NCBI GenBank assembly: GCA_016867675.1
Contig: VGIZ01000011.1
Span: forward strand, 1-10,911
DNA: 10,911 nucleotides
Source of the DNA: Candidatus Aenigmatarchaeota archaeon
GTDB lineage: Archaea; Aenigmatarchaeota; Aenigmatarchaeia; QMZP01
Direction: 5' to 3'
Positions 1,201 to 7,035 of this stretch are shown piece after piece (position 1 is the first letter of the stretch; each line of letters opens with the position of its first letter). The notes under the pieces are model-generated. The model made no database searches. It worked only from the letters and a program-made list of their open reading frames with translations, and was not told where the DNA came from. Both the position numbers and the translations under genes were made by a program.

Positions 1201-1317
1201 AAGATGCCTGATTGGGCCACGCATTTGTTTGCAGTCCTGCACTTGTCGCGAGCGCATTCGCACAAAAACAGCAGGGCTCAAGCCAAGGTAGCAGGCGGGC
1301 TGGCGCATACAAATTCT

Positions 1318-1325
1318 TATTTTAA
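1318..1325 (+). promoter_or_regulatory. TATA box of secretion ATPase gene
   Basis: TATTTTAA lies 24-31 nt upstream of the ATG at 1349, consistent with a leaderless transcript. No ribosome binding site is visible before the ATG. Confidence 0.6.
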
Positions 1326-1348
1326 GCAAACTTGCCCAATATTATTCC

Positions 1349-3058
1349 ATGGTGGACCTTCCCGGCATCAGGGGCCTTATCAGGAAGAAGATAGAGGAGG
1401 CGAAGAAGGAGGCGGTCTACCCCAAGGTCATGTTCAGGGAGCCTCTGCACATCATAGCCCTGCCGAGCTTCAGGGACCCCTCAAGGGTGGACTTCAGCTA
1501 CCCGCTCATAGAGCCCTTTGCCACAGCGCACATAAAATGGGACGACAGCACCAAGACGCTCAAGTACAATGTCATTGAGCCCGAGATGTCAGATGAAGAC
1601 GGGGCGATGCTCAAGAAGATGGAGGATGCGCTCACCGAGGTCATAGACGTAAAGATGTCGGCCATCAAGAACCGCTCCGAGCTTGTGGCATACCTGCAGA
1701 AGAAGATAAGCCAGATAATGGACGACACCGGCATGAGGATTCCGCAGGACAGGTACATCAGGATAATGTACTACATCATCAGGGACTTTGTGGGGCTCAA
1801 CCGCATAGAGCCGCTCATGCACGACCCTTACATAGAGGACGTCGGATGCACGGGCACTGACACGTCCATCTACATAATCCACAGGAAGTTCGGCTCCATG
1901 GAGACCAACATCATCTACAAGGACTTTGAGGAGCTCAGCGACTTCGTGGTCAAGATTTCAGAGCGATGCGGCCGTTACATCTCCTACGCCAAGCCGCTGC
2001 TGGACGGCAGCCTGCCTGACGGCTCCAGGGTTCAGGCCTCGCTGGCAAAGGACGTTTCCACCAAGGGTCCCACGTTCTCCATCAGGAAATTCAGGAGCAA
2101 CCCCTTCTCGCCCGTTGACATGATGAACCTCGGAACAGCGTCGTCAGCCATGCTCGCATACCTGTGGCTGCTGCTGCAATACGACGCCTCCATGCTGATA
2201 GTCGGCGGCGTCTCCACAGGAAAGACCAGCATGCTCAACGTGCTGAGCATGTTCATCCATCCCGAGGACAAGATAATCAGCATAGAGGACACGCGCGAGA
2301 TAAACATCCCCCACGCCAACTGGGCGCCGTCTGTCACCCGCGTCGGCTTCGGCGTGCCTGAGTCCATGACAGGCAAGAGGTATGGCGAGATAGACCTCTT
2401 CGACCTTCTCAGGGAGAGCTTCAGGCAGAACCCTGACTATGTCATAGTCGGCGAGGTCAGGGGCAAGGAAGCCTATGTCATGTTCCAAGGAATGTCGTCG
2501 GGCCACCCGAGCCTCGGCACCATGCACGCGGGCTCTGTTGACGACGTCGTCAAGAGGCTGGAGACGCCGCCAATAGAGCTGTCGCCCTCGCTGCTGGAGG
2601 CGCTTGACATCATCATCGTCATGGTCAATGCCCAGGAAAAGGGCAAGTCCGCGCGCCGCGTCAAGGAGATTGACGAGATACAGAGCGTGGACCTGAGGAC
2701 AGGCGGGGTGCACACTGTCAAGACCTTCGGCTGGGTGCCCTCGCAGGACAAGTACAACGAGAACACCATGGCGTCCGAGGTCATACGCAGGATTTCGTTT
2801 GACAAGGGCATACCCTACCCCAGGCTGATGGAGGAGATAGAAAAGAGGAAGCGCGTGCTTGAGTGGATGCAGCGGCACAACGTGGTGCAGTACGACGAGG
2901 TCTGCAAGATAATCAACCTCTACTACAACGACGAGCCCGCGCTGATGCAATGGGTGGAGAAGGACACCCCGCCCCACGAGGAGAAGGTCAAGGGTCACGT
3001 GGAAAAGGCCTGGGAGTCCGTGACCGGGCTGAGGGTTGTCGGGGAGGACGGGAAGTAG
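1349..3058 (+). CDS. Type II/IV secretion-type ATPase (archaeal pilus/archaellum assembly, GspE/TadA/FlaI superfamily)
   Basis: A 569-residue cytosolic hexameric ATPase expected to power assembly of a type IV pilus-like filament or secretion of pilin-like proteins. All four family motifs are present: Walker A GGVSTGKT (286-293), Asp box SIEDTREI (311-318), Walker B DYVIVGEVRG (363-372) and His box GTMHAGS (390-396). The approximately 220 residues before the core include DGSLPDGSRVQ, the usual N-terminal-domain signature just upstream of the ATPase core. The C-terminal extension after residue 480 is helical and highly charged. The natural partner is the integral membrane platform protein at 3335-4219, but that gene is on the opposite strand with a small gene between. 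No pilin gene with a class III signal peptide is visible. Whether it belongs to an archaellum or a Tad/adhesive pilus cannot be decided here. Confidence 0.93.
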   Translation: MVDLPGIRGLIRKKIEEAKKEAVYPKVMFREPLHIIALPSFRDPSRVDFSYPLIEPFATAHIKWDDSTKTLKYNVIEPEMSDEDGAMLKKMEDALTEVIDVKMSAIKNRSELVAYLQKKISQIMDDTGMRIPQDRYIRIMYYIIRDFVGLNRIEPLMHDPYIEDVGCTGTDTSIYIIHRKFGSMETNIIYKDFEELSDFVVKISERCGRYISYAKPLLDGSLPDGSRVQASLAKDVSTKGPTFSIRKFRSNPFSPVDMMNLGTASSAMLAYLWLLLQYDASMLIVGGVSTGKTSMLNVLSMFIHPEDKIISIEDTREINIPHANWAPSVTRVGFGVPESMTGKRYGEIDLFDLLRESFRQNPDYVIVGEVRGKEAYVMFQGMSSGHPSLGTMHAGSVDDVVKRLETPPIELSPSLLEALDIIIVMVNAQEKGKSARRVKEIDEIQSVDLRTGGVHTVKTFGWVPSQDKYNENTMASEVIRRISFDKGIPYPRLMEEIEKRKRVLEWMQRHNVVQYDEVCKIINLYYNDEPALMQWVEKDTPPHEEKVKGHVEKAWESVTGLRVVGEDGK

Positions 3059-5914: not shown

Positions 5915-6039
5915 GCAGAGGTAGCCAAACGGCCAGGCGCTCGCCTGCAGCAAGCCTTTTAAGAAAAGGCTTGAGCGAAAAACGTTGGAGAAAAGCTTGC
6001 AGACAGCGGGTCAACCGGGTTCGACTCCCGGCCTCTGCT
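5915..6039 (+). tRNA. tRNA-Cys (GCA) with intron
   Basis: The acceptor stem GCAGAGG (5915-5921) pairs with CCTCTGC (6032-6038). The D arm is GCC/GGC (5924-5926, 5936-5938). The anticodon stem is CTCGC (5940-5944) with GCGGG (6006-6010). The loop is C-T-GCA-G, with anticodon GCA at 5947-5949, completed by A6005 after splicing. The variable loop is TCAA. The T arm is CCGGG-TTCGACT-CCCGG (6015-6031). Discriminator base T6039 (U73) is the known identity base for tRNA-Cys. CCA is not encoded. A 54-nt intron (5951-6004) sits at the canonical 37/38 position. The get3 ATG begins at 6041, one base past the discriminator. Confidence 0.95.
5951..6004 (+). other. BHB intron of tRNA-Cys (54 nt)
   Basis: The splice sites form a canonical bulge-helix-bulge. 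The central 4-bp helix is CTGC (5945-5948) with GCAG (5999-6002). The 5' bulge is A-G^C (cut after 5950) and the 3' bulge A-C^A (cut after 6004). The inner helix is AAGC (5952-5955) with GCTT (5995-5998). The outer helix is the anticodon stem. The intron also holds a perfect 9-bp hairpin, AAGCCTTTT/AAAAGGCTT (5952-5960 with 5964-5972), which uses the same AAGC as the BHB inner helix, so the two folds compete. The rest (5973-5994) is A-rich and contains no C/D box pair I can see. Confidence 0.9.
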
Positions 6040-6040
6040 T

Positions 6041-7035
6041 ATGAATGTTAGGAAGAAACAGACGCAGTTCTACTTCTTCTGCGGCAACCAGTAGCAAAGC
6101 TGGCCGTTAAGGGAGGAGTGGGAAAGACCTCAATCGCGTCAGCAACGGCGCTCTGGTTCTCAAGGCACGGGAGGAGGACGCTTGCGGTTTCCATAGACCC
6201 CGCCCACTCCCTTTCGGACTCGTTTGAGGAGAGGATAGGGCACGAAGTGAAGCAGCTGGAAAAGAACCTTTACGGAATGGAGATAGACCCTGCGAAGTCC
6301 ATGCAGGAATACAAGGACAAATTCATGCCTAAGATAGAGAACAGCTTCCTCGGCTCCATGGGGCTGGAGGACACATTCGACATCGCGGGCATGACTCCGG
6401 GCATGGACGAGATAGCTGCGTTTGACAGGTTCCTGAAATACATGAACTCGGACGAGTATGACGTCATAGTCTTTGACACCGCTCCTACAGGCCACGCCCT
6501 TCGCTTCCTGTCGCTGCCCGACGTCCTCGACAGCTGGGTCGGAAAGATGATAAAGATAAGGATGCAGTTCGCGGGCATTGCGGGGCTCGTGGGCAGGCTG
6601 CTGCCGTTCGGCAGCAGGAGTAAATCTGCCGCGGATGCGGCTAGTGGCGAGCAGCCGGAAAAATTTGGAGCAGAGCAGCTGGAGGCGATGAAGCAGCGCA
6701 TAAAGGCGGCTAAGGAAATCCTGTCAGACCCGAAACGGACGCATTTCAGCCTTGTGCTCATACCCGAGGAGATGAGCATATTCGAGAGCGAGCGGTCGCT
6801 TGAGGCGCTGAAGGCATACGGCATACCGGTCGAGGGGGTTGTCGTGAACAACATCGTGCCCGAGAACACGCACTGCAGGTTCTGCAGCGAGAGAAGGCAG
6901 ATGCAGGAGGCAAGGCTGAAACTCATCAGGCAGAAATTCAGGAAGTGCGGGATAAAGGAGCTTCACCTTTTCGCGGAAGAGGTCAAGGGCGCTGTGATGC
7001 TGGAGAGAGTCGGCCTGCTGCTTTACGGGAAATGA
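6041..7035 (+). CDS. get3: Get3/ArsA-family ATPase, interrupted by a 23-nt BHB intron
   Basis: Cytosolic dimeric ATPase of the tail-anchored-protein targeting (Get3/TRC40) type. Exons are 6041-6086 and 6110-7035; splicing gives 323 residues, a normal archaeal Get3 length. The spliced protein begins MNVRKKQTQFYFFC and then shows the deviant Walker A GKGGVGKT (15-22) with signature lysine K16, switch I DPAHSLSDSF (45-54), switch II DTAPTGH (138-144), an A-loop region IPEEMS (233-238) and a zinc/dimer CxxC (C271/C274). The CxxC and the Met-rich helices at about 98-128 favour Get3 over arsenite-pump ArsA. Unspliced, the ATG frame stops at TAG 6092 after 17 codons, and the downstream frame has no start before GTG 6118, which lies inside the P-loop. 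No TATA box is correctly placed, so it is probably cotranscribed with tRNA-Cys. A frameshifted pseudogene is the alternative, but the exact BHB geometry argues against it. Confidence 0.9.
6087..6109 (+). other. Predicted BHB pre-mRNA mini-intron in get3 (23 nt)
   Basis: The outer helix is C6073-T6080 with G6111-G6118 (8 bp including three G-U pairs). The central 4-bp helix is GCGG (6081-6084) with CCGT (6104-6107). The 5' bulge is C-A^A (6085-6087) and the 3' bulge T-A^A (6108-6110). The inner helix is CCAG (6088-6091) with CTGG (6100-6103), closing an 8-nt loop. Cutting between the second and third base of each bulge removes 6087-6109 and joins A6086 to A6110. This rebuilds an AAG codon for the signature lysine of GKGGVGKT and restores one open frame. 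The length is not a multiple of three and the segment contains an in-frame TAG. Splicing itself is inferred. Confidence 0.87.

Follow-up and report, generated by a model that had tools for sequence, protein, structure and literature searches.

Introns bordered by a bulge-helix-bulge (BHB) motif are described in archaeal pre-mRNA for the cbf5 gene of Crenarchaeota (Yokobori 2009, PMC2738675; Watanabe 2002 as cited there). The accessible parts of the former paper report both the splicing of this intron and its dependence on the splicing endonuclease, and they place the cleavage of the cbf5 BHB between the second and third residues of the bulge (PMC2738675). An archaeal virus is also mentioned there as having putative introns of 12 bp (Peng et al., in PMC2738675), which, like the insert described below, are very short and lie in protein-coding genes. 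Similarly, the BHB sites in the 5' UTR of Haloferax HVO_1309 are an mRNA substrate of the splicing endonuclease; as far as the available text of this 2020 paper goes, they differ from our case in lying in a non-coding leader and restoring no codon, and, besides them, crenarchaeal cbf5 is the only mRNA BHB intron reported in archaea (PMC7714728).

Here we describe a 23-nt insert in the get3 gene of a Candidatus Aenigmatarchaeota archaeon which, judging from its sequence, from comparison with relatives and from known enzymology, is very probably a BHB intron of the get3 pre-mRNA. It resembles the crenarchaeal cbf5 intron, as presented in the accessible parts of PMC2738675, in forming a BHB within a coding sequence, in having the same bulge cuts and in splitting a catalytic codon after its first base. 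The two differ in the codon (the catalytic Asp of Cbf5 versus the P-loop Lys of get3), in the lineage (Crenarchaeota versus Aenigmatarchaeota) and in the endonuclease (hetero-oligomeric for crenarchaeal cbf5 versus epsilon2 here), and the get3 case is known from DNA alone. With archaeal tRNA introns at position 37/38 the insert shares the 3-4-3 motif and the cut rule, and one such intron is predicted in the tRNA-Cys gene just upstream. Unlike tRNA introns, it lies in an mRNA, where removal must restore the reading frame too.

Among the matches listed by our search of the open-licence literature, which covered titles and abstract starts and may miss subscription papers and preprints, there was no report of an archaeal get3 or rtcB intron, in keeping with the initial annotation, according to which no such intron is known to have been reported in Get3/ArsA. 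Within the searched literature, cbf5 is the sole coding-sequence BHB intron stated with proof, so that get3 would become the second such gene and rtcB the third. If the reading is true, get3 would represent a rare case of archaeal mRNA splicing by tRNA-splicing enzymes, and the occurrence of two interrupted get3 genes together with rtcB and cbf5 cases in one phylum would make such splicing wider and recurrent. Several long-standing questions would also become testable: how BHB introns arise, why they lie in codons of the highest conservation, and whether archaeal genes are regulated through splicing capacity.

A predicted BHB intron in the P-loop of get3

The window, which is the whole 10,911-nucleotide stretch that was analysed, is contig C11 of a source genome of 772 kb in 156 contigs (64% complete), whose genus has no further genome among the relatives searched. 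From the ATG at 6041, the frame translates to MNVRKKQTQFYFFCGNQ and ends at TAG 6092-6094, while the remainder of Get3/ArsA lies in a different frame with its stop at 7035. Joining 6041-6086 to 6110-7035 yields a Get3 of 323 aa with FFCGKGGVGKT, and raises the PF02374 score from 303.9 bits (from GTG 6118) to 326.8 bits. Translation therefore bears out what the initial annotation had claimed, namely the two frames, the exact restoration of GKGGVGKT on excision of 6087-6109 and the splitting of the signature Lys codon. On the plus strand, exon 1 (6041-6086) opens with the ATG and ends with the first base of the codon for the P-loop Lys, the predicted 23-nt intron (6087-6109) splits that codon as A^AG and contains TAG 6092 in the exon-1 frame, and exon 2 (6110-7035, stop included) encodes the remainder of the ATPase, a PF02374 profile match of 316.5 bits in a frame open for 305 codons. 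As in the cbf5 type of pre-mRNA intron, the insert breaks the open reading frame and its exact removal restores a conserved motif.

The borders of the insert have the form expected of a BHB. The centroid structure of 6068-6122 is an exact 3-4-3 BHB whose outer, central and inner helices measure 11, 4 and 5 bp; the fold has z = -3.7, and none of 200 shuffled sequences folded equally well. In this structure, all on the plus strand, 6070-6080 of exon 1 pairs with 6111-6121 of exon 2, the latter strand also encoding Gly-Gly-Val-Gly of the P-loop, and GCGG at 6081-6084 pairs with CCGU at 6104-6107 as the central helix. The 5' bulge CAA (6085-6087) and the 3' bulge UAA (6108-6110) carry the predicted cuts, after 6086 and after 6109, and the inner helix CCAGU/GCUGG with its 6-nt loop occupies 6088-6103. 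Cutting after the second bulge base, the cbf5 rule, gives precisely the in-frame get3 join. The coordinates and predicted cuts of the canonical BHB first proposed were right, but its outer helix of 8 bp was too short. The minimum free energy state slips by one base on the 5' side, with a difference of 0.1 kcal/mol (-24.7 vs -24.6 kcal/mol), and when 3-4-3 registers near the break were scored by energy, blind to frame, the best was the in-frame one (-25.4 kcal/mol).

A hairpin at a frame break might instead be passed by the ribosome, through translational bypassing or programmed frameshifting. The short stem-loop at the get3 break does recall known bypass elements, yet bypassing requires matching take-off and landing codons, and here the take-off GGC (6083-6085) does not match the landing GTT (6106-6108, before AAG 6109-6111); on this test we rejected a bypass element (byp). 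Frameshifting would add extra residues within the P-loop, and the rtcB inserts discussed below differ in codon phase and in length (21-34 nt), which likewise speaks against passage by the ribosome and leaves it very improbable. A group I or II self-splicing intron was also rejected: such introns have a ribozyme core of hundreds of nucleotides, the insert measures only 23 nt, and the window holds no Rfam match at the gathering score.

The protein recorded for the window (P0001) is the 305-aa frame from GTG, which begins at VGKT. Gene calling thus yields a truncated gene, and an interruption of this kind can go unseen. This record agrees with a reading in which an internal start (CTG 6100 or GTG 6118) produces an N-terminally shortened Get3 and the 17-aa upstream frame is a leader peptide. 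Such a protein would be missing the first beta strand and, at the P-loop, either the initial Gly or the entire front part. The 34 get3 genes of the phylum that are uninterrupted retain all of these, and we regard an internal start as highly unlikely.

To relate the predicted get3 intron to chance BHB motifs, we scanned 241,450 bases of the source genome on both strands (the window and 20 stretches of 7.7 to 20 kb) for motifs with 4/4 central pairs, an inner helix of at least 4 and an energy of -8 kcal/mol or lower. The get3 motif ranks first among 379 candidates that bridge two open frames (-24.1 kcal/mol); in 241 of these candidates, the unspliced sequence does not allow reading through. Weak motifs escape the scan: the rtcB insert of the same genome falls below its threshold, so that the output is not an intron count. 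The margin is modest, the next unrelated candidate standing at -22.0 kcal/mol, so fold strength by itself does not decide; the in-frame P-loop join and the second get3 gene described below do. Twelve further strong candidates were read as spliced proteins (one in two frames) and judged by eye to be chance; the second-ranked place, on L113, lies outside these 12.

Splicing machinery and the upstream tRNA-Cys

The source genome contains one splicing endonuclease match, encoded on L044 at 1201-2409 (minus strand), a protein of 402 aa whose residues 20-402 align with the epsilon2 enzyme of ARMAN-2 (4fz2; phmmer E 5.3e-103). The residues aligned with the catalytic triad Tyr236, His251 and Lys282 are conserved (numbering from the available part of PMC6379350, which also describes epsilon2 enzymes as having broad specificity). 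The endonuclease type, which the initial annotation had suggested looking up in the same genome, is accordingly epsilon2 with a Tyr/His/Lys triad. A gene for the ligase RtcB, itself interrupted, is present as well, and the genome thus encodes both a splicing endonuclease and a ligase. As a separate observation, the matches listed for some other genomes (G022, G007, G020 and G011, for example) include an endonuclease frame of 391-435 aa together with a short one of 184-192 aa, perhaps two types of splicing endonuclease in one genome.

Just upstream of get3, ARAGORN with introns allowed places a tRNA-Cys(GCA) gene at 5915-6039 on the plus strand, whereas its default mode and Rfam at the gathering score returned no tRNA in the window. 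The 32-nt intron that ARAGORN assigned to this gene was replaced by a BHB-based one of 54 nt, predicted at 5951-6004 (plus strand; tRNA position 37/38) with 4/4 central pairs, an inner run of 4 bp and 6/6 outer pairs; the clean 71-nt form left after its removal is recognised as tRNA-Cys. A single base lies between the end of the tRNA and the get3 ATG, so that one shared precursor transcript might carry both BHBs. For the relative P0002, part of what is recorded as its N-terminus may come from translating a tRNA, in which case the tRNA-get3 order may be conserved.

With these components, the get3 precursor would be transcribed, possibly together with the intron-bearing tRNA-Cys, the epsilon2-type endonuclease would cut it after 6086 and 6109, and RtcB would ligate the exons at 6086/6110.

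Interruptions of get3, cbf5 and rtcB across the phylum

Get3 matches were found in 42 of 156 genomes of the phylum, comprising 36 get3 genes (E 8e-47 or better, counted by hand from the listing) and six weak, short matches. The initial annotation had proposed comparing get3 with and without the insert: the P-loop is uninterrupted in 34 of the 36 genes and interrupted in two, those of the source genome (G000) and of G027, which belongs to another family of the same order. G027 carries a different, BHB-like insert of 27 nt, which splits this Lys codon in the same phase, behind its first base. Its best register, scored blind to frame, is the in-frame one (-20.4 kcal/mol); its central helix is able to pair 5 bp, and in the canonical register the first outer pair is mismatched (G-A). 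Two of the uninterrupted genes (G035 and G034) had appeared odd, which a run of N and contig ends explain.

In the get3 tree, the two interrupted genes fall into separate well-supported clades, each of which also contains uninterrupted genes. From this we infer two gains at one site; a single old intron with very many losses is a conceivable alternative. The closest relatives found with a complete N-terminus (P0002-P0004, 79-80% identity) are uninterrupted, so the insert would be young or often lost. At the position of the insert, 32 intact get3 genes could form on average 6.2 of 9 outer-helix pairs, compared with 9/9 in the window and 8/9 in G027, and this pre-existing potential may account for the recurrence. 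One of the intact genes, L007, reaches 9 of 9 outer pairs despite having no insert. The get3 site would then be a hot spot for BHB insertion, because the P-loop codons supply the outer helix, with pyrimidine-rich Phe-Phe codons facing purine-rich Gly-Gly codons, and only the inner stem needs inserting. Separately, the recorded proteins of three further Get3 relatives (P0010, P0031 and P0056, 72-82% identity, on contigs of up to 55.7 kb) start after the P-loop, as would be expected of interrupted genes, and are possibly further cases.

These relatives also bear on a rival view, in which get3 was recently broken into a pseudogene or an assembly error introduced the 23 nt, and the BHB is coincidental. 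The lack of the insert in the closest complete relatives would fit such an origin, chance BHB motifs at -22 kcal/mol do exist in the source genome, and the rtcB gene of G101, broken without a BHB, indicates that real breakage or misassembly occurs in such genomes. Against this, the get3 frame is otherwise open over 305 codons, its motif is the top-ranking one in 241 kb with exact in-frame cuts, and in G027, from another family, this codon is interrupted in the same phase by a different insert that is again BHB-like. Breakage or misassembly is on this evidence improbable, and the reading as a BHB intron is supported by its agreement with independent lines of evidence: the second get3 gene, the splicing machinery, the predicted tRNA-Cys intron, and the interruptions of rtcB and cbf5.

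For cbf5, a TruB_N match, taken as Cbf5, was obtained in 131 genomes and was not found in the source genome; among the matches listed, three (G149, G124 and G103) have internal stops. Their inserts, of 15, 15 and 30 nt, lie at the catalytic Asp codon (L132 163-178, L133 150-165 and L134 279-309, respectively), and removal restores this codon and GTLDP. When placed after the first base of the Asp codon, each of the three has 4/4 central pairs and at least four outer pairs; shifting the placement by one base downstream leaves the product of L133 and L134 unchanged. This position is that of the proven crenarchaeal cbf5 intron, as published in the accessible part of PMC2738675. The cbf5 inserts, read from sequence as candidate introns of a proven kind at a proven place, are an internal positive control within this phylum.

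Matches to rtcB are more widespread (136 of 156 genomes), and the gene is interrupted, mostly by BHB-like inserts, in at least 18 of these 136, a lower bound given that partial and contig-end genes and those in intein-sized frames lay outside the sample. The sample consisted of 20 genomes with broken- or long-looking matches and the source genome, 21 in total. Among the 18 interrupted genes, 16 are interrupted at site 1 (PDGH^xGYG or HxG^YG) and five at site 2 (around GFDINCG), including three at both; the remaining three comprise two intact genes and one that is differently broken. The rtcB genes of G059 and G061 (L098 and L097), considered as interrupted, turned out to be uninterrupted. That of G101 (L088) has a frame break and a missing stretch without a BHB, either a real defect or a misassembly, and was excluded from the counts. 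Because L067 and L079 are one gene, L067 was removed as redundant. RadA (PF08423), used as a control, passed the cut-off in 150 of 156 genomes and showed no internal stop among the matches listed.

In the source genome, rtcB (L045 2938-1498, minus strand, on G000:C3) is interrupted by a BHB-like insert of 34 nt, PDMHWG^YG. A contiguous outer helix is missing here, and the register that is in frame and restores the motif ranks only second. The gene just upstream is one that we take to be archease-like. The interrupted genes of the 17 further genomes are L079-L087 and L089-L096. Intron lengths were derived from HMM coordinates and the best-pairing position within 22 bases was then taken, the HMM score being unable to choose between neighbouring joins. 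At site 2 of L086, the length of 28 derived in this way was wrong and 31 restores GFDINCG; neither L095 nor site 2 of L083 allowed a convincing placement of a BHB.

In twelve site-1 genes of one clade, the cut immediately follows the codon for the His of PDGH; the positions were first chosen by pairing at the protein-defined length, and all 12 nonetheless came to lie after the same codon. The main clade has 13 site-1 genes, and the pair count omits one of them, L095, with its unsure cuts. Across the 12, 88.0% of the cells of the stem are paired and 18 cells are changed on both sides, a covariation with double changes at all five inner pairs, while slid registers reach at most 58.3%. In 11 of the 12, the central helix has G-A as its outermost pair, and the site-1 motifs are therefore not strictly canonical. 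The rtcB tree was built from 23 uninterrupted and 18 interrupted genes of the 136, with L097 and L098 outside it. A side observation concerns long frames: many of the rtcB matches listed belong to open frames some 830-1020 aa long, in which the Pfam match begins at about 36-49, and these look like inteins near intron site 2.

A broader and decidedly tentative proposal, which we think rather unlikely as a whole, is that Aenigmatarchaeota possess a recurrent class of tiny BHB pre-mRNA introns in active-site codons, amounting to a feedback regulon based on RNA splicing. Their sites would be the P-loop Lys codon in Get3, the motifs PDGHxGYG and FDINCG in RtcB and the catalytic Asp codon in Cbf5. 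Since RtcB, the exon-joining ligase, is itself interrupted, the splicing pathway would control the mRNA of its own ligase, and the output of get3 and cbf5 would be tied to splicing capacity.

Pairing at 23 interruption sites

We combined the 21 rtcB sites with the two get3 sites and scored their registers blind to frame. The best register was in frame and stop-free at 17 of the 23 sites (expected 6.6, P about 5e-6, for sites that are partly related by descent and so are not independent draws), and at the other six it was out of frame or contained a stop. All but one of the 17 in-frame registers restore the protein motif, the exception being rtcB of the source genome. The intron length defined by the protein equalled the best-pairing length at 10 of the 23 sites, with 1.35 expected by chance, and was the best or second best at 18.
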